From contig NZ_JACXWX010000001.1 of assembly GCF_014764505.1 (NCBI RefSeq), positions 620,001 to 684,000 of the forward strand: 64,000 nucleotides of DNA, in the 5' to 3' direction. The notes below the pieces were generated by a model. It searched no databases and was not told the DNA's origin. It saw only the letters and a list, made by a program, of their open reading frames with translations. Origin of the DNA: Phormidium tenue FACHB-886. GTDB lineage: Bacteria; Cyanobacteriota; Cyanobacteriia; Elainellales; Elainellaceae. Below are positions 1,728 to 11,811 of this stretch, one piece after another; positions within the stretch are counted from its first letter, which is position 1, and every line of letters begins with the position of its first letter. The translations under genes were made by a program, and so were the position numbers.

Positions 1728-2333
1728 ATGCCCACAATGGACTCAAATCCCCCCGCTCTTGGAGCGAACATTACACCTCTGACTGCGGATCTGCCAGATC
1801 TTGATTTGTTCAATGCCCTTCAGAATGGTCAAGTCCAAGCGCTTTCGCTGCTGTACGATCGCTACGCTCGGCTAGTTTACAGCCTAGCTTTCAAGGTATT
1901 GGCAAATGCCGAAGAAGCTGAAGATGTTGTGCAGGATATCTTCCTAACGCTCTGGCAGCGCAACACCTACAATCCGTCTCGCGGCTCTTTGAGCAGCTTT
2001 CTAACAACTATGACCCGCTCTCGTGCCATTGATAAACTGCGATCGCGAGGGACGCGCTATCGATCTTTGCAGCGGTGGGCAGGTATGAACCGCAGTGAAA
2101 CTGATGCTGCCACTCCCCTAGAGCAAGTTTCGATGGGTGAACGAGCGCAGCTCATCCTCACTGCCCTAGAGCAACTGCCACCTAATGAACGACGGGTGCT
2201 GGAAATTGGCTACTACGAGGGGTTGAGCCAATCTGAGATCGCTAAACGACTAGAGATTCCACTAGGCACAGTCAAAACTCGATCGCGCCAAGGATTGCTG
2301 AAACTGCGGCAAGCCCTACAGGACCATGTTTGA
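1728..2333 (+). CDS. ECF-type (group 3/4) RNA polymerase sigma factor
   Basis: A 201-residue sigma-70 family factor. Sigma region 2 spans about 41-105 with the core-binding DIFLTLW (70-76) and a VVQD segment before it. Region 4 spans about 145-195 with the helix-turn-helix LSQSEIAKRLEIPLGTVKTR. There are no regions 1 or 3, as expected for ECF factors. The next gene, 87 bp downstream on the same strand, encodes an RskA-type anti-sigma factor, so the pair should be a membrane-controlled stress-response switch of the SigK/RskA type. Two in-frame ATGs (1728 and 1737) are possible; neither has a clear ribosome-binding site. The target promoters are unknown. Confidence 0.93.
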   Translation: MPTMDSNPPALGANITPLTADLPDLDLFNALQNGQVQALSLLYDRYARLVYSLAFKVLANAEEAEDVVQDIFLTLWQRNTYNPSRGSLSSFLTTMTRSRAIDKLRSRGTRYRSLQRWAGMNRSETDAATPLEQVSMGERAQLILTALEQLPPNERRVLEIGYYEGLSQSEIAKRLEIPLGTVKTRSRQGLLKLRQALQDHV

Positions 2334-2368
2334 GGTGAGGGATAAGTCCCATAGCTGAAATTTAAGCT

Positions 2369-2420
2369 CTCTATACTCTTCCACTCCCCCCCCTCCTACT
2401 TCCCCCTCTCACTTCCTACT
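2369..2420 (+). promoter_or_regulatory. Pyrimidine-rich leader before the anti-sigma gene
   Basis: The roughly 50 bases before the ATG at 2421 are almost all C and T. They contain CCTCCT, which equals the anti-Shine-Dalgarno sequence instead of its complement, and no purine-rich ribosome-binding site. The tract looks like a run of imperfect ACTTCCCCC-type repeats. It separates the sigma and anti-sigma cistrons and may lower or alter translation of the second one; that role is inference. Confidence 0.45.
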
Positions 2421-3245
2421 ATGACTCGATCGCCTCTCCCTGACCACTGGCAAGAACTCCTCGCGGGCTATACTTTGGGCGACCTCAGCCCTGAAGAAAC
2501 AGAAACGGTGCAGCATCTTCTAGTTACTCACCCAGAACTAGTTGCAGAAGCCGAGCGTCTGCAAGAGGTGTTGGGCTTGATGGCTTATGCCCTACCCGGA
2601 CAGGAACCATCGCTGCTGTTAAAAGAGAAGATTTTGGGAATTGCCCAGACAACCCCTCAGCTTGCTGAGGCGGCACCTGAAACTGCAGCAAGCAACCCAG
2701 CCGACACGTCCAATTCTAGCGGCAGCCTAACGGAGCTAGGACGTTCTCGACGCTTTGCTCAGCCTGGTTCTAAGCGCAGATCGAGAACATCATTCTGGGG
2801 GCTAAGTGCAATCGCCGCCGCTGCTTTGGTTGCGCTGGGCGTGGACAATTACCGCTTGCGGCAAGATGCCCAGGAAGCTAGATCAATTATTGCCGCACTC
2901 CAGCAGCGAGGGACGCTGACCTACGCGCTGGAGGGGACAGCGCAAGCTAACAATGCTTCTGGCAGCGTCATGGTAGCGGAAGGACAGCAGGTGATCATGG
3001 TGGTGAAAGATTTACCCGTGTTGCCCTCAGGTCAGGTTTATCGGCTTTGGGCAATGCCGCCCTCGGGAAAAGATCCCACCTTTTGCGGTCAGTTCAACGC
3101 CAGTGAGGCAGGTTCCACCAATACGCAATGGCTTGCGCCTGCATCAGCCTGTCAGTCTACAACAGTACAAATGTTGATTACGATCGAAAACGCGCTCGAT
3201 CCACCTGTACCCAAGGGGTCGTTGGTTATGAAGAGCCGCGTCTAG
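2421..3245 (+). CDS. RskA-type transmembrane anti-sigma factor
   Basis: 274 residues in three parts. The cytoplasmic N-terminal part (about 1-70, HWQELLAGYTLGDLSPEE...) resembles anti-sigma domains that clamp ECF factors. After a Ser/Ala-rich linker there is a single membrane helix at about 124-142, preceded by a basic stretch (KRRSR), giving an N-in topology. The C-terminal part (about 160-274), with LPVLPSGQVYRLWAMPPSGK, is the extracytoplasmic RskA/anti-sigma-K domain. It should sequester the upstream ECF factor and release it after proteolysis. The family is clear; the signal cannot be read from sequence. Confidence 0.88.
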   Translation: MTRSPLPDHWQELLAGYTLGDLSPEETETVQHLLVTHPELVAEAERLQEVLGLMAYALPGQEPSLLLKEKILGIAQTTPQLAEAAPETAASNPADTSNSSGSLTELGRSRRFAQPGSKRRSRTSFWGLSAIAAAALVALGVDNYRLRQDAQEARSIIAALQQRGTLTYALEGTAQANNASGSVMVAEGQQVIMVVKDLPVLPSGQVYRLWAMPPSGKDPTFCGQFNASEAGSTNTQWLAPASACQSTTVQMLITIENALDPPVPKGSLVMKSRV

Positions 3246-6509: not shown

Positions 6510-6579
6510 AAGCCAGTCAGCTACCCCACTACTCCCGGTGCAGAGTTTCCCATCGCTACTGACTTCAAGAGCTGCCCCT

Positions 6580-7284
6580 ATGTTTTCAGCGTCATCACAA
6601 CCCGAAAGTGCTCGTCCTTTCCTGACTTGGCAAAGAATTTTAGATTGGGCGCAAGAGCATTATCGCTATCGCACATTCAGTAAAGATGAGAAAATCCCTA
6701 CGCGAGCAGGTCTACTTTATTTAGTCCAGCGTGGTGCGGTTCGGCTGGTTGGTGAAGCGCAGGTTAGCGCCACGCCCAACAGCGCGCGCGCTCCCAGAAT
6801 CAATTCAGAAGAAGCATTTCTCGGGTTTGTTGGAGCAGGGCAGCCCTTTGAAATTGTGGCGCAGTCACCGTTCATGCTGCAAAGCTTTGCACATGTTGAT
6901 CAAACCGCAGTGATCTGGCTATATTGGCACGATCTCGACAACTGGCCGCATTTTCGCCGCGAGGTACTCGATGCCTTCCGCTACCAGCACCAGCGCAAAC
7001 TTTTGTGGCTGAGTACGCTGGGGCAACGCCGGACGATCGATCGCCTCCTTGGCTTCCTGACGCTGCTGATTGAAGAATTTGGCGAACCCTGCGAAGAAGG
7101 CTATTGTCTGCCTTGGTCGCTAACGCATGCGCAAATTGGCAGCGCTATCGGCTCTACTCGGGTCACCGTGACCCGCTTAATGGGTAAGCTGCGTCAGCGG
7201 GGGTTGATTCGTACCTATAGTGATAATTTGCTCTGTTTACCTGCTGAATCGATCGTTCGCCAAAACCCTAGTCAAATCAGCTAG
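6580..7284 (+). CDS. Crp/Fnr-family transcription regulator, NtcA-like
   Basis: I use the ATG at 6580 (MFSASSQPESARPFL), giving 234 residues; an ATG-less longer frame extends upstream to 6538. The C-terminal helix-turn-helix (LTHAQIGSAIGSTRVTVTRLMGKLRQRGLI) closely resembles that of NtcA, the global nitrogen regulator of cyanobacteria, including the GSTRVTVTRL recognition helix. The segment before it (RTIDRLLGFLTLLIEEFGEPCEEG) also matches NtcA-type proteins. The N-terminal effector domain is much more divergent and lacks the usual Crp cyclic-nucleotide motif. It is therefore an NtcA paralogue rather than NtcA itself. Its DNA target may resemble the NtcA half-sites, but the ligand is unknown. 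Confidence 0.85.
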   Translation: MFSASSQPESARPFLTWQRILDWAQEHYRYRTFSKDEKIPTRAGLLYLVQRGAVRLVGEAQVSATPNSARAPRINSEEAFLGFVGAGQPFEIVAQSPFMLQSFAHVDQTAVIWLYWHDLDNWPHFRREVLDAFRYQHQRKLLWLSTLGQRRTIDRLLGFLTLLIEEFGEPCEEGYCLPWSLTHAQIGSAIGSTRVTVTRLMGKLRQRGLIRTYSDNLLCLPAESIVRQNPSQIS

Positions 7285-7555: not shown

Positions 7556-8635
7556 TTAACGGATTCGAATGAATCCGGCTTTGCTCAACAGCGATTGCCC
7601 TTGTTCAGACAGCAGCAGGTTCGCATAGGCTTCTCCTGCCTGCTGGTCAGCCTGCCCGTTTTGTTTAACGATCACAAACAGCCTGCGCGTTAGAGGATAT
7701 TGCCCGCTTTGCAGCGCGTCTGCATCAAGCTGAGTGCGGTTCTGCGCTGAGCACTCTGCTGCCGGAACGGACGGTTCCTGGTAAGGTGCAACAAGCTCTG
7801 TGGATTGTCGTCCCAGCGCCAGGGGTTGAACCCCGCACTGCCCCACCACTTCTGGAGCAGAGGCGTAGTAGATGCCGCCGGGATTGGTAGCCACTGCCTG
7901 CAAGGCTTCCGTAGTGGTGTTGATGTATTGCACAGTGGCATCAAAGCCCGCGCCACCCAAAACATTCTCCACAAAAAATTCTACAGTGCCGCCATCTGCT
8001 GGACGGCGTGAGTAAGGGACGATCGGCACATCTGCGCCGCCAACTTGGTTCCAGTTGGTGATCTGGCCGGTGTAGATGCCTTTGAGCTGGTCGATCGTCA
8101 GTCCGGGCAGGTTCAAGCCAGGATGGACGGCAACGGCAATCCCCTCTAGCGCTACTGGAATTTCTTTGAGCGTAAAGCCGCGCGTTTGGGCAGCTTGGTA
8201 CTCTTCTGGCTTCAGCGATCGAGAAGACTGAGCAATGGAAAGCTGATTGTTGAGCAACATGCGGATGCCCATGGAGGAGCCAGGCGAACCGGTCGCAGGC
8301 TGTGTATAGCGCAGCCGAAACCCACTCCAAGCAGATTGAATTTGGGGATCAACCTGCCCACGAATTGGAGCCCAGCTAGTGCTGCCGCCATAGTTGAACA
8401 ATCCAGACGGCACATTTTCAACTTCGGCAAAGGTTTGGGCGGTTTGCCCGGCTGATTGGGTGGCGGCTGCCGGAGAAGAATTAGTTACCGGAGGAGAGAC
8501 ACTGGGTGAAGCTCCACCACCAAAATTGCCGATGCTGAAATCCGATTGCCTCAGCCACCACAATCCGCCGCCAATTAAACCCAGTGTGACCAACAGCGAC
8601 ACAATTAGCGCAGGCGCATCATTTTTTTGAGCCAT
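7556..8635 (-). CDS. PstS-like phosphate-type solute-binding protein, membrane anchored
   Basis: 359 residues. The N-terminus (ALIVSLLVTLGLIGGGLWWL) is a single hydrophobic anchor, followed by a Ser/Pro/Ala-rich linker to about residue 75. The remainder is a PBP-like domain: VPSGLFNYGGSTSWAPIR (ligand loop), LSIAQSSRSLKPEE, EGIAVAVHPG, LKGIYTGQITNWNQVGG and a YPLTRRLFVIVK strand, as in PstS/SphX proteins. There is no lipobox. No pstC, pstA or pstB lies in the window. The N-terminal anchor is nearly the same as that of the next upstream gene, and both follow a Ser/Thr kinase on the same strand. It may therefore be a sensor or scavenger rather than a transporter subunit. Confidence 0.85.
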   Translation of the reverse strand: MAQKNDAPALIVSLLVTLGLIGGGLWWLRQSDFSIGNFGGGASPSVSPPVTNSSPAAATQSAGQTAQTFAEVENVPSGLFNYGGSTSWAPIRGQVDPQIQSAWSGFRLRYTQPATGSPGSSMGIRMLLNNQLSIAQSSRSLKPEEYQAAQTRGFTLKEIPVALEGIAVAVHPGLNLPGLTIDQLKGIYTGQITNWNQVGGADVPIVPYSRRPADGGTVEFFVENVLGGAGFDATVQYINTTTEALQAVATNPGGIYYASAPEVVGQCGVQPLALGRQSTELVAPYQEPSVPAAECSAQNRTQLDADALQSGQYPLTRRLFVIVKQNGQADQQAGEAYANLLLSEQGQSLLSKAGFIRIR

Positions 8636-8880
8636 AAATTTGCTGCGGCAGGAAAAATGCAGAATTGAAACAAGTATTTCTAATGAACAGATTCTTCAGG
8701 ACAACAATCGATTCCGCAAGCTTCTAGATAACATGCCGCTATCTTGAACCAACTTGATCTCTGCAGCTTGATCTAGCGACTAAGCGCTTGAAATTAGGCT
8801 TTGGCAACATTGCAGCGCATCGAGAAAACTGCCAAAACCTGCCAAAAATTTATTTTCAGAAGAACTACGTTAGGTTGCAC

Positions 8881-10305
8881 CTAGCGAAGCGGCACAAAGT
8901 CAAATCCATACCCCGATCGCGATCCGGGCTGAACTTGTACGAGCTGTACAGATTGATTGCGATCGCCAGAAGGTAGAAACTGTACGCTTCCACCTGCTCC
9001 TTCAGTCGAAAATCCAGCCGACCTGAGCGCCTCCTGTACCCCTTGACGGGTAGGAGTTGTGCCAAGGGCAGCAACCAGCGCAGCAGTTGCATCATAAGAC
9101 ATGGCAGTTCGCCAGTTTACATCCGCTTTCCAGAGCTGGCGAGAGCTTTGCACAAAGGGAGCCTGCGGATTTGCCAAAATATGCCAGGGAACCGCCACGA
9201 CCAGTCCTTCGGCTGCCTTTTGTCCCACAGAGAGCGTCTTGGGAGCATAAGCATCATCGCCTGTCAGCACTTTGAGCTGTCCTTGGTTGACCTGGAGCAC
9301 CTGCAAGGCCCGATCGAGCTGTCCAGAATTGGGCAGCAGCACCAGCACCGTTGCCCCTTGCTGTGTTACCTGTTGCAGGTTAGCAGCGGCGCTAAAGCTA
9401 GCGCTAGAAAGATCTATTTCGCTCACGACCTGCCCCCCGCTTAGCCCTAGCGCCGAGACAAACTCAGATTTGAGCGACTGGCTATAGCCGCTTTGAGAAT
9501 TGAAGAAGACTGCTGCTTTCTGCTGCTGGAGCTGGCCGGTCATGTAATTTGCCAAAGCTCTAGCGGCGGCAAAGTCGCTAGGAACCGTACGAAAGACAAA
9601 AGGACTAGCGTTGGATAACTGAACCGATGTGCTAACTGGCGAAATCATTACCAGCTTGCCTTGGTCATAAACTTTGCCAGCGGCGATCGAGGCATCGCTC
9701 GTGTAATGCCCCACCACGCCAAGAATGCTGCTATCTCCAACTAAGCCTGCCGCTACCTGTTGCGCCCCTTCGACTGTACCGCCGTCATCAACGATCGCCA
9801 CCTTCAGTGGAACGCCACTGATTCCGCCCGCTTTGTTTACCTCGTCTTGCGCCTGTGCCACGCCCCGCAGCATCTCTAGTGAGGCATCTACGTCTGTTGC
9901 CAACGGTACGGCAATAGCAATTGTGTAGGCTTTCTGTTCGCCAATCCGGGCATTATTTAGATATATCAGCGCTTCTGGGTCATTGGCTTTGGCTTGCAGA
10001 GAGGCTTCCAAGTCGGCAACCGCTTGGGCATAGTTTTTGGCAGCAATTGCTTCCACGCCTGCCTGCTTTTTCGCTTTGGCATCTGGGTTGTCGTTAGCTC
10101 CATCTGGCGCTAGCACTTTGCCACCCAGGCTCAGGCGGCTCTCAAACGAAGCACGATCGCCTGAAGCCACCACCCCAGTTGAATTTGGCGAATCTGCACC
10201 TAATAAGTTAAATCGATTTGCCAGCCACCAGCCGCCGCCTCCCAGCAGAGCGATCGTGACTAGCAACGACACAACCAGCGGCAGCGTTTCATTTTTTTGA
10301 GTCAT
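8881..10305 (-). CDS. LivJ-type solute-binding protein with anchor and TPR-like segment
   Basis: 474 residues. Residues about 9-29 (LPLVVSLLVTIALLGGGGWW) form the same membrane anchor as the PstS-like protein downstream. Residues about 70-125 (AGVEAIAAKNYAQAVADLEA...) look like one or two TPR helical hairpins. From about 130 the sequence is a type I periplasmic binding fold: YTIAIAVPLATDVDASLEML, VNKAGGISGVPLKVAIVDDG, GVVGHYTSDASIAAGKVYD and MISPVSTS, as in branched-chain amino-acid receptors. No liv permease or ATPase genes are nearby. It starts 39 bp after the kinase stop and is very likely in the same transcript. Confidence 0.85.
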   Translation of the reverse strand: MTQKNETLPLVVSLLVTIALLGGGGWWLANRFNLLGADSPNSTGVVASGDRASFESRLSLGGKVLAPDGANDNPDAKAKKQAGVEAIAAKNYAQAVADLEASLQAKANDPEALIYLNNARIGEQKAYTIAIAVPLATDVDASLEMLRGVAQAQDEVNKAGGISGVPLKVAIVDDGGTVEGAQQVAAGLVGDSSILGVVGHYTSDASIAAGKVYDQGKLVMISPVSTSVQLSNASPFVFRTVPSDFAAARALANYMTGQLQQQKAAVFFNSQSGYSQSLKSEFVSALGLSGGQVVSEIDLSSASFSAAANLQQVTQQGATVLVLLPNSGQLDRALQVLQVNQGQLKVLTGDDAYAPKTLSVGQKAAEGLVVAVPWHILANPQAPFVQSSRQLWKADVNWRTAMSYDATAALVAALGTTPTRQGVQEALRSAGFSTEGAGGSVQFLPSGDRNQSVQLVQVQPGSRSGYGFDFVPLR

Positions 10306-10344
10306 AGCTCGATGGCGATGCAGTGGGTATTCCCAGATTAACTC

Positions 10345-11811
10345 TTACATCCAGCGAGCGAGTAGGGTGTAAATCAATCGAAAGATTAGCGCCACGGCGA
10401 TTGCGCCCAACCCGGCAAACAGCACGATCGGCAAAATAACCTGCAGCAACGGAACCACTCCACCCGCCACCGGCAAAATTTTGTTTAGCGCGGGAATCAG
10501 CACCACGACCGCCAGCGATGCTATGGCAATAATCATCAAGTCAACTTTCTCAATCCAGCGGCGCGACTGTGCAAACACCATTACGCTAACTACGCCTAAC
10601 AAGAGTAGCCAAAACGTAGGAGTTACGGCTGTCCCCAGAACGCTGGCAGCAGCGATCGCTAGCAACCCCCCTTCAACGCCGGTAAAAGCAGCTTCAGCAA
10701 TAAATTCGGGAAGCGAAAAAGAAGGACGGGGTAGCCGAGTCTTGACGGGACGAACGGGTTTAGAAGCAGGCTGCGGAATGGGAGCAGGCTGCGGAATGGG
10801 AGCAGGCTGCGGATTGAGGGCATGTGGGTTGGGCTGCGGATTAGGCTGCGGAATGGGAGTGGGCTGAGGCGCAGGCTGGAGGGCGGCTAGCACTTCGGTT
10901 GCCGACTGAAAACGATGGATGGGATTGGCTTGCAGCATCCGGTTAAGGATAGCTTCTAGGCGATCGCTGACCCTAGCACGGCTGCGCCAGCTCCAAGTGT
11001 TGTTATAAGCATCGTATAGGTCGCGCGGCTGCTGTTGCGTCAGCAGCATCACACAAGTAACCGCGAGGGCATAGAGATCGGTAGAGGGATAAACCTCTTC
11101 GCGTTGCATCTGTTCTGGTGGAGCAAAGCCCATTGAATAAATGCCAGTTTGGGCTTGGCTGCCTGCTCCAGCCGTAACCTGTTTGACGGCTCCAAAGTCC
11201 AGTAGATACAGCAACCCATCCCGCCGGCGAATAATATTAGACGGCTTAATATCGCGGTGGATAGAGCCATTGTTATGCACGTACTGAAGCACAGGCAAAA
11301 TTTCCCTCAACAGGTGCAAAATATCTGCTTCCGAAAATTTGCCGTTGCGCTCTAGTTCTTCTTCCAGCGTGTAGCCATCCACAAATTCCTGCACCAGGTA
11401 GAAAAGCTGCTCGGTTTCACCCGGAATGCGGCTGGGTACGGTTAAGGGAAAAAATGCTTTGAGGTCAGGAATTTGAGGATGTACACCGAGCTGTTTGAGG
11501 ACTTGCCCTTCCCGCCGAAACAGCGTTTGCGCTAGCTTGAGTTTATCGGCAGAAAGGTTGTTGCTGGGCAGAAACTGCTTGACGACACACTCTTCTGTTT
11601 CGGGAATGTAGCGATCGCACGCCAAAAAGGCTGCCCCAAAGCCTCCTCGTCCCAGCAGCCGCCTAGGAAGATAGCGATCGGCGAGCATAAGAGGCATCCC
11701 GCAGGTAGTACAAAACCGCTGCTGAGCTGTCATCAGGTTGTCGTGATCGTCTAAGTCGGGCAGTTGATTAACAGGGCGGGGACAGCTCGGTCGAGTGCAA
11801 TAAACTTCCAT
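10345..11811 (-). CDS. Membrane-bound Ser/Thr protein kinase with N-terminal Cys4 knuckle
   Basis: 488 residues. The N-terminus has CTRPSC (Cys5, Cys10) and CTTCG (Cys34, Cys37), a likely zinc site common in cyanobacterial Hanks-type kinases. The kinase domain covers about 46-310: glycine loop GRGGFGAAF (54-62), Lys78, HRDIKPSN with Asp187, DFG at 205-207 and APPE at 230-233. All catalytic residues are present. A Pro/Gln repeat linker (QPAPIPQP units, about 312-350) leads to a C-terminal hydrophobic region with three or four membrane helices. There is no extracytoplasmic sensor domain. It is first in a same-strand set with two anchored binding proteins. Confidence 0.92.
   Translation of the reverse strand: MEVYCTRPSCPRPVNQLPDLDDHDNLMTAQQRFCTTCGMPLMLADRYLPRRLLGRGGFGAAFLACDRYIPETEECVVKQFLPSNNLSADKLKLAQTLFRREGQVLKQLGVHPQIPDLKAFFPLTVPSRIPGETEQLFYLVQEFVDGYTLEEELERNGKFSEADILHLLREILPVLQYVHNNGSIHRDIKPSNIIRRRDGLLYLLDFGAVKQVTAGAGSQAQTGIYSMGFAPPEQMQREEVYPSTDLYALAVTCVMLLTQQQPRDLYDAYNNTWSWRSRARVSDRLEAILNRMLQANPIHRFQSATEVLAALQPAPQPTPIPQPNPQPNPHALNPQPAPIPQPAPIPQPASKPVRPVKTRLPRPSFSLPEFIAEAAFTGVEGGLLAIAAASVLGTAVTPTFWLLLLGVVSVMVFAQSRRWIEKVDLMIIAIASLAVVVLIPALNKILPVAGGVVPLLQVILPIVLFAGLGAIAVALIFRLIYTLLARWM

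Follow-up and report, generated by a model that had tools for sequence, protein, structure and literature searches.

A Ser/Thr kinase gene of Phormidium tenue followed by two unrelated solute-binding proteins on a common anchor: a probable nutrient-sensing set

What bacterial Ser/Thr kinases respond to has been called an outstanding question (PMC6069109, PMC6985446). In the GlnH-GlnX-PknG system of the Actinobacteria, the gene of a solute-binding protein accompanies that of a Ser/Thr kinase, whose activity the protein adjusts to external amino acids, and the authors of that work already propose solute-binding proteins as sensors of Ser/Thr kinases, mentioning other linked and fused cases (PMC6069109, PMC9769921). 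A kinase-SBP protein made as a single polypeptide, MSMEG_1200, is cited in the first of these papers (PMC6069109). In cyanobacteria, ANF-receptor domains were known earlier on metacaspases (PMC2853523). For most cyanobacterial Hanks kinases the stimulus is not known, and the gene set described here offers a candidate input of two ligand classes. We found no prior description of a cyanobacterial kinase-LivJ-PstS set in the literature, as covered by open-access papers.

The set lies in Phormidium tenue FACHB-886 (contig NZ_JACXWX010000001.1), within a stretch of 64 kb that was analyzed as a whole and is referred to here as the window. Its three open reading frames are all on the minus strand and run, 5' to 3', from a Ser/Thr protein kinase of 488 amino acids (10345..11811; Pfam Pkinase, 1.9e-34) through a LivJ-type solute-binding protein of 474 amino acids (8881..10305; PF13458, Peripla_BP_6, 8.3e-34) to a PstS-type solute-binding protein of 359 amino acids (7556..8635; PF12849, PBP_like_2, 2.2e-32). 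The spacer between the kinase and LivJ-type genes is 39 bp, and that between the LivJ-type and PstS-type genes is 245 bp. The initial annotation had described a kinase with C-terminal membrane helices followed by these two genes, a description borne out by the open reading frames, by Pfam and NCBIfam domain calls on all three, and by hydropathy. Upstream of the kinase, the window carries a divergent nitrite/sulfite-reductase-type gene and has no LysR-family gene there; at the other end, a Crp-family regulator gene (6538-7284) is convergent to the PstS-type gene, and farther away an ECF sigma factor gene is followed by a gene for an RskA-type anti-sigma factor (1728-3245).

The kinase has every feature of a Hanks-type Ser/Thr kinase with a 4-Cys prefix, namely, the Pkinase domain, catalytic Lys, HRD and DFG motifs, and N-terminal 4-Cys element. 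The prefix (amino acids 4 to 41; 11689..11802, minus strand) scored 43.9 bits with NCBIfam NF045510, for which the cut-off is 24, and in the catalytic domain (amino acids 51 to 308; 10888..11661, minus strand; PF00069) residues K78, E101, H185-R186-D187, and D205-F206-G207 were invariant among 18 relatives. Hydropathy and a module profile search defined a C-terminal membrane module (10348..10719, minus strand) of four hydrophobic segments, the second and third of which are separated by a conserved, positively charged loop. An N-in/C-in topology with periplasmic loops that are all short would fit this pattern; the N-terminal catalytic part is predicted to be cytoplasmic and the C terminus to lie in the membrane. 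Judged by its sequence, the kinase appears to expose almost nothing to the periplasm and to have no outside sensor of its own. The module profile gave one strong match in the P. tenue genome (next best, E = 0.018) and, in 61 of 117 Cyanobacteriia genomes, exactly one match per genome.

The two binding proteins begin with nearly the same sequence. The anchor of the LivJ-type protein, MTQKNETLPLVVSLLVTIALLGGGGWWLANRF (amino acids 1 to 32; 10210..10305, minus strand; model helix 7 to 33), and that of the PstS-type protein, MAQKNDAPALIVSLLVTLGLIGGGLWWLRQS (amino acids 1 to 31; 8543..8635, minus strand; model helix 7 to 30), were delimited by BLASTP and anchor searches, and meaningful alignment of the two proteins is restricted to residues 1 to 28, of which 18 of 28 (64%) are identical (BLASTP E = 1e-8). 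The near identity of anchors on unrelated folds, noted in the initial annotation, thus holds. A search of the P. tenue genome with the anchor returned these two proteins and a third match (E = 0.48), which was set aside because it falls inside an ABC exporter open reading frame. Across the 117 Cyanobacteriia genomes, a profile built from 28 anchors had at least one match in 70, and the strong matches examined were all LivJ-type proteins, PstS-type proteins, or members of PST2, apart from one fragment, truncated by its contig, to which no type could be assigned. PST2 is a second PstS-like subfamily of about 320 to 335 amino acids with a weaker version of the anchor (loci L142-L163); a kinase was nearby at 0 of 15 PST2 loci. 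The spread over many unrelated exported proteins that the initial annotation had set against its own idea was found neither in the P. tenue genome nor among the strong matches in the 117 genomes, and the domain swapping onto a common anchor that it had proposed is supported by the occurrence of LivJ and PstS folds with this anchor in dozens of genera. In loci L230 and L232 of Dolichospermum/Anabaena (near 6700-7000), the LivJ open reading frame has an upstream extension of repeat-like GAGILPAIIIQI sequence, which may be a small repeat located at the 5' end of the gene.

Behind the anchors, the two proteins have different architectures. An AlphaFold2 model of the LivJ-type protein (mean pLDDT, 91.5) shows the anchor, a disordered linker, TPR-like helical hairpins (amino acids 74 to 121; 9943..10086, minus strand; helices 74 to 88, 92 to 105, and 110 to 121), and a type I periplasmic binding fold (8887..9927, minus strand), and in one relative the region homologous to the hairpins has a TPR_2 match. 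The nearest solved structures in the PDB are Leu/Ile/Val-type binding proteins, and metabotropic glutamate receptors match too. At the positions aligned with S203, T226, and D350, Escherichia coli LIVBP has S79, T102, and E226, and in LIVBP these three residues touch the bound alpha-amino acid. By sequence and model, then, the protein has the type I fold and the alpha-amino-acid pocket positions of the LivJ-type (Peripla_BP_6) class, and its ligand is probably an amino acid. The model of the PstS-type protein (mean pLDDT, 84.4) likewise has an anchor helix and a disordered linker, here followed by a type II periplasmic binding fold (7559..8404, minus strand), the nearest structures to which are Sll0540 of Synechocystis and phosphate-binding proteins. 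The four phosphate-family loops (GGSTS, GS..GI, QSSR, and R210..GGT217) are conserved, with one Ser aligning with Gly, and the fold and loops together, from Pfam and PDB matches, are those of the PBP_like_2 phosphate-binding class. Its ligand is probably phosphate or a similar oxyanion, and the invariant C267 and C295 would fit a periplasmic disulfide. Since the protein scores below the curated cut-offs of TIGR02136 and TIGR00975, it is not a certified transporter PstS. Some other large open reading frames of the P. tenue genome with PBP_like_2 matches begin with signal-peptide-like sequences.

Relatives of the set occur in about 30 genera, including Elainella saxicola, Drouetiella hepatica, Nostoc, Symplocastrum, and Phormidesmis, in the orders kinase-LivJ, kinase-LivJ-PstS, or kinase-PstS-LivJ, and most of 80 named loci have arrangements like that of a kinase with a sensor gene 3' of it. 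As to gene order across the cyanobacteria, which the initial annotation had proposed comparing, the adjacency of kinase and partner is widely kept and the order of the partners is variable (K-L-P, K-P-L, and K-P-L-P), with one partner sometimes missing; in Microcoleus and Microcystis, loci have the LivJ-type gene without the kinase. When sensor presence was scored as an anchored-type LivJ or PstS protein, the 117 genomes comprised 60 with kinase and sensor, 1 with the kinase only, 5 with a sensor only, and 51 with neither, so that an anchored partner was present in 60 of 61 genomes with the kinase module versus 5 of 56 without it. The corresponding Fisher test gave p = 4e-26 with the kinship of the 117 genomes ignored, a value that overstates the evidence because the genomes are related and the thresholds were chosen after the matches had been inspected. 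By a hand count from family labels, 21 families have the kinase, and 20 of these also have a partner. Of the 60 genomes, 37 had a same-strand sensor gene no more than 4 kb 3' of the kinase, the nearest one being within 150 bp in most of them, and in the other 23 no partner was adjacent. The linked genomes had LivJ alone (15), PstS alone (13), or both (9), and therefore either fold can be the partner. In 90 of 100 kinase loci (e.g., L166:4122-5141), the gene immediately upstream of the kinase, in the same orientation, is of the LysR family, and in 63 of 100 a close homolog of the Crp-family regulator of the window lies downstream. The synteny is therefore in part general, and with LysR equally conserved upstream, part of the kinase-sensor adjacency could be inherited along with it.

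The same folds also occur as parts of larger proteins. A LivJ-type domain and a kinase are joined in single open reading frames, with a transmembrane segment, at loci L068, L070, L249, L250, L251, L254, and L256. The P. tenue genome itself encodes two caspase-domain proteins with one transmembrane segment each, one with a LivJ-type ectodomain (L071:5930-8671; G000:C199) and one with a PstS-type ectodomain (L246:426-2582; G000:C137). Both sensor folds thus reappear on another kind of effector. Other cyanobacteria have CHAT-LivJ and STAND-like ATPase-LivJ proteins (loci L069, L253, and L255, the last of these being STAND-like), and there are PstS proteins of a zinc-ribbon-like kind as well; Pfam was applied to ten of the fusion proteins. 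This recurrence as fused ectodomains of other effectors adds to the case for domain swapping. It is also what would be expected if the binding proteins reported mainly to other effectors and the kinase linkage were one lineage-specific use or inherited synteny, and the 23 unlinked genomes and the general synteny with LysR and Crp neighbors point the same way. We regard this explanation as improbable, however, since the sensor tracks the kinase even where the two are unlinked (60 of 61 genomes) and since the existence of both LivJ-only and PstS-only kinase loci indicates repeated rearrangement with adjacency kept. Adjacency, co-occurrence, and the kinase-LivJ fusions together give good support to a functional link between the binding proteins and the kinase.

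The cognate permease and ATPase that are encoded alongside an ABC importer receptor are missing at this locus. The remark in the initial annotation that neither is near agrees with the flanking genes scanned, among which there was no permease or ATPase, and with the 64-kb window, for which no ABC_tran or BPD_transp_2 match was listed (for ABC_tran, among 150 of 305 candidates scored). Elsewhere, the P. tenue genome has 24 BPD_transp_2 (LivHM-type) permease matches, all outside the window, and many ABC ATPases (again with 150 of 305 ABC_tran candidates scored). With these components available and binding pockets that look functional, the two proteins might be anchored receptors for importers encoded elsewhere, the kinase being an incidental neighbor or a regulator of uptake. 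Besides the lack of transporter genes among the neighbors, this idea meets the difficulties that the kinase-LivJ fusions cannot be simple transport receptors and that transport receptors would not be expected to alternate as neighbors of one single-copy kinase; we give it little credence.

We consider it reasonably probable that the three genes form one nutrient-sensing kinase system with tethered, nontransport sensors. In many cyanobacteria, a membrane kinase without an outside sensor adjoins one or both of two unrelated binding proteins with the same anchor, which makes it probable that these serve it as exchangeable sensors of an amino acid and of phosphate. Four C-terminal helices would hold the kinase in the membrane with almost no periplasmic part, and the LivJ-type and PstS-type proteins would act as membrane-tethered sensors rather than as transport receptors, their common N-terminal helix allowing one or the other, or the two together, to associate with one membrane partner. 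When ligand makes the Venus-flytrap domain open or close, the movement could travel along the tether and alter kinase activity, which would place the kinase among the Ser/Thr kinases controlled by solute-binding proteins. More tentatively, the arrangement may work as a plug and socket, in which the one sensorless membrane kinase of each genome accepts two unrelated ligand-binding proteins through one anchor helix, integrating the supply of amino acids and phosphate, and sensors are exchanged freely from lineage to lineage. Against a single sensing system stand the lack of anchor-kinase covariation described below, the 23 of 60 genomes in which the partners are unlinked, the 15 of 15 PST2 loci without a kinase, and the conserved LysR gene.

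The initial annotation had gone further in suggesting that the binding proteins report to the kinase through the membrane. The linkage part of that suggestion stands on adjacency, co-occurrence, and fusions; direct helix contact does not fare as well. A partial-correlation test gave no covariation of the anchors with the four kinase helices once that of the kinase domain and the binding domains was accounted for (partial r, -0.14 and -0.10), and this result and the unlinked PST2 subfamily count against a dedicated anchor-kinase helix interface. Anchors of LivJ and PstS proteins were slightly more similar within genomes (0.526) than between genomes (0.508; p = 0.02), an excess too weak to serve as evidence of pairing. 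The absence of covariation, the same anchor on PST2, and the 23 unlinked genomes would suit a model in which the binding proteins are still tethered sensors and the anchor is a signal for membrane sorting or assembly (plasma membrane versus thylakoid, or docking of a third protein) rather than a kinase docking helix. Such a general signal is harder to reconcile with a P. tenue genome search that returned no other exported protein with the anchor, with its class-wide confinement to LivJ/PstS-type binding folds, and with its nearly complete co-occurrence with the kinase, and we think it unlikely, if less so than the importer and other-effector explanations. For the nutrient-sensing reading, confirmation of the sensors would answer what switches on one poorly understood bacterial kinase. 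The conserved single-copy kinase is a testable target, and lineages that keep LivJ only, PstS only, or both constitute a natural experiment in sensor swapping.

Like GlnH-GlnX-PknG, the P. tenue set, here known from sequence, would have a binding protein that is not coupled to transport, is encoded next to a Ser/Thr kinase, and adjusts its activity. In the actinobacterial system, however, a lipoprotein serves as the sensor, the signal is relayed by GlnX, a protein of its own with four transmembrane segments, and the TPR domain of the kinase couples the kinase to it, whereas in P. tenue the sensors are transmembrane anchored, the kinase itself carries four helices and is membrane embedded, and one anchor is common to two unrelated sensor folds. 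The scanned flanking genes included no GlnX-like gene, and the set is for these reasons not a member of the GlnH-GlnX-PknG system. With MSMEG_1200 and the cyanobacterial kinase-TM-LivJ fusions, it would have in common a cytoplasmic kinase joined across the membrane to a periplasmic binding fold; unlike in those proteins, the kinase and its probable sensor each have a gene of their own, and one sensor can stand in for the other. The ANF-receptor metacaspases of cyanobacteria (PMC2853523) also have a LivJ-type ectodomain that serves an intracellular effector, in their case a fused caspase-like protease without the shared anchor. Class C GPCRs, as seen in mGluR structures, use the LivJ-type I binding fold as a receptor as well, but no homology was seen in the membrane or output parts. 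The best reading is that the set is a modular receptor kinase by which an amino acid and a phosphate-like ion would be read through swappable sensors, a variant of kinase signaling controlled by solute-binding proteins.
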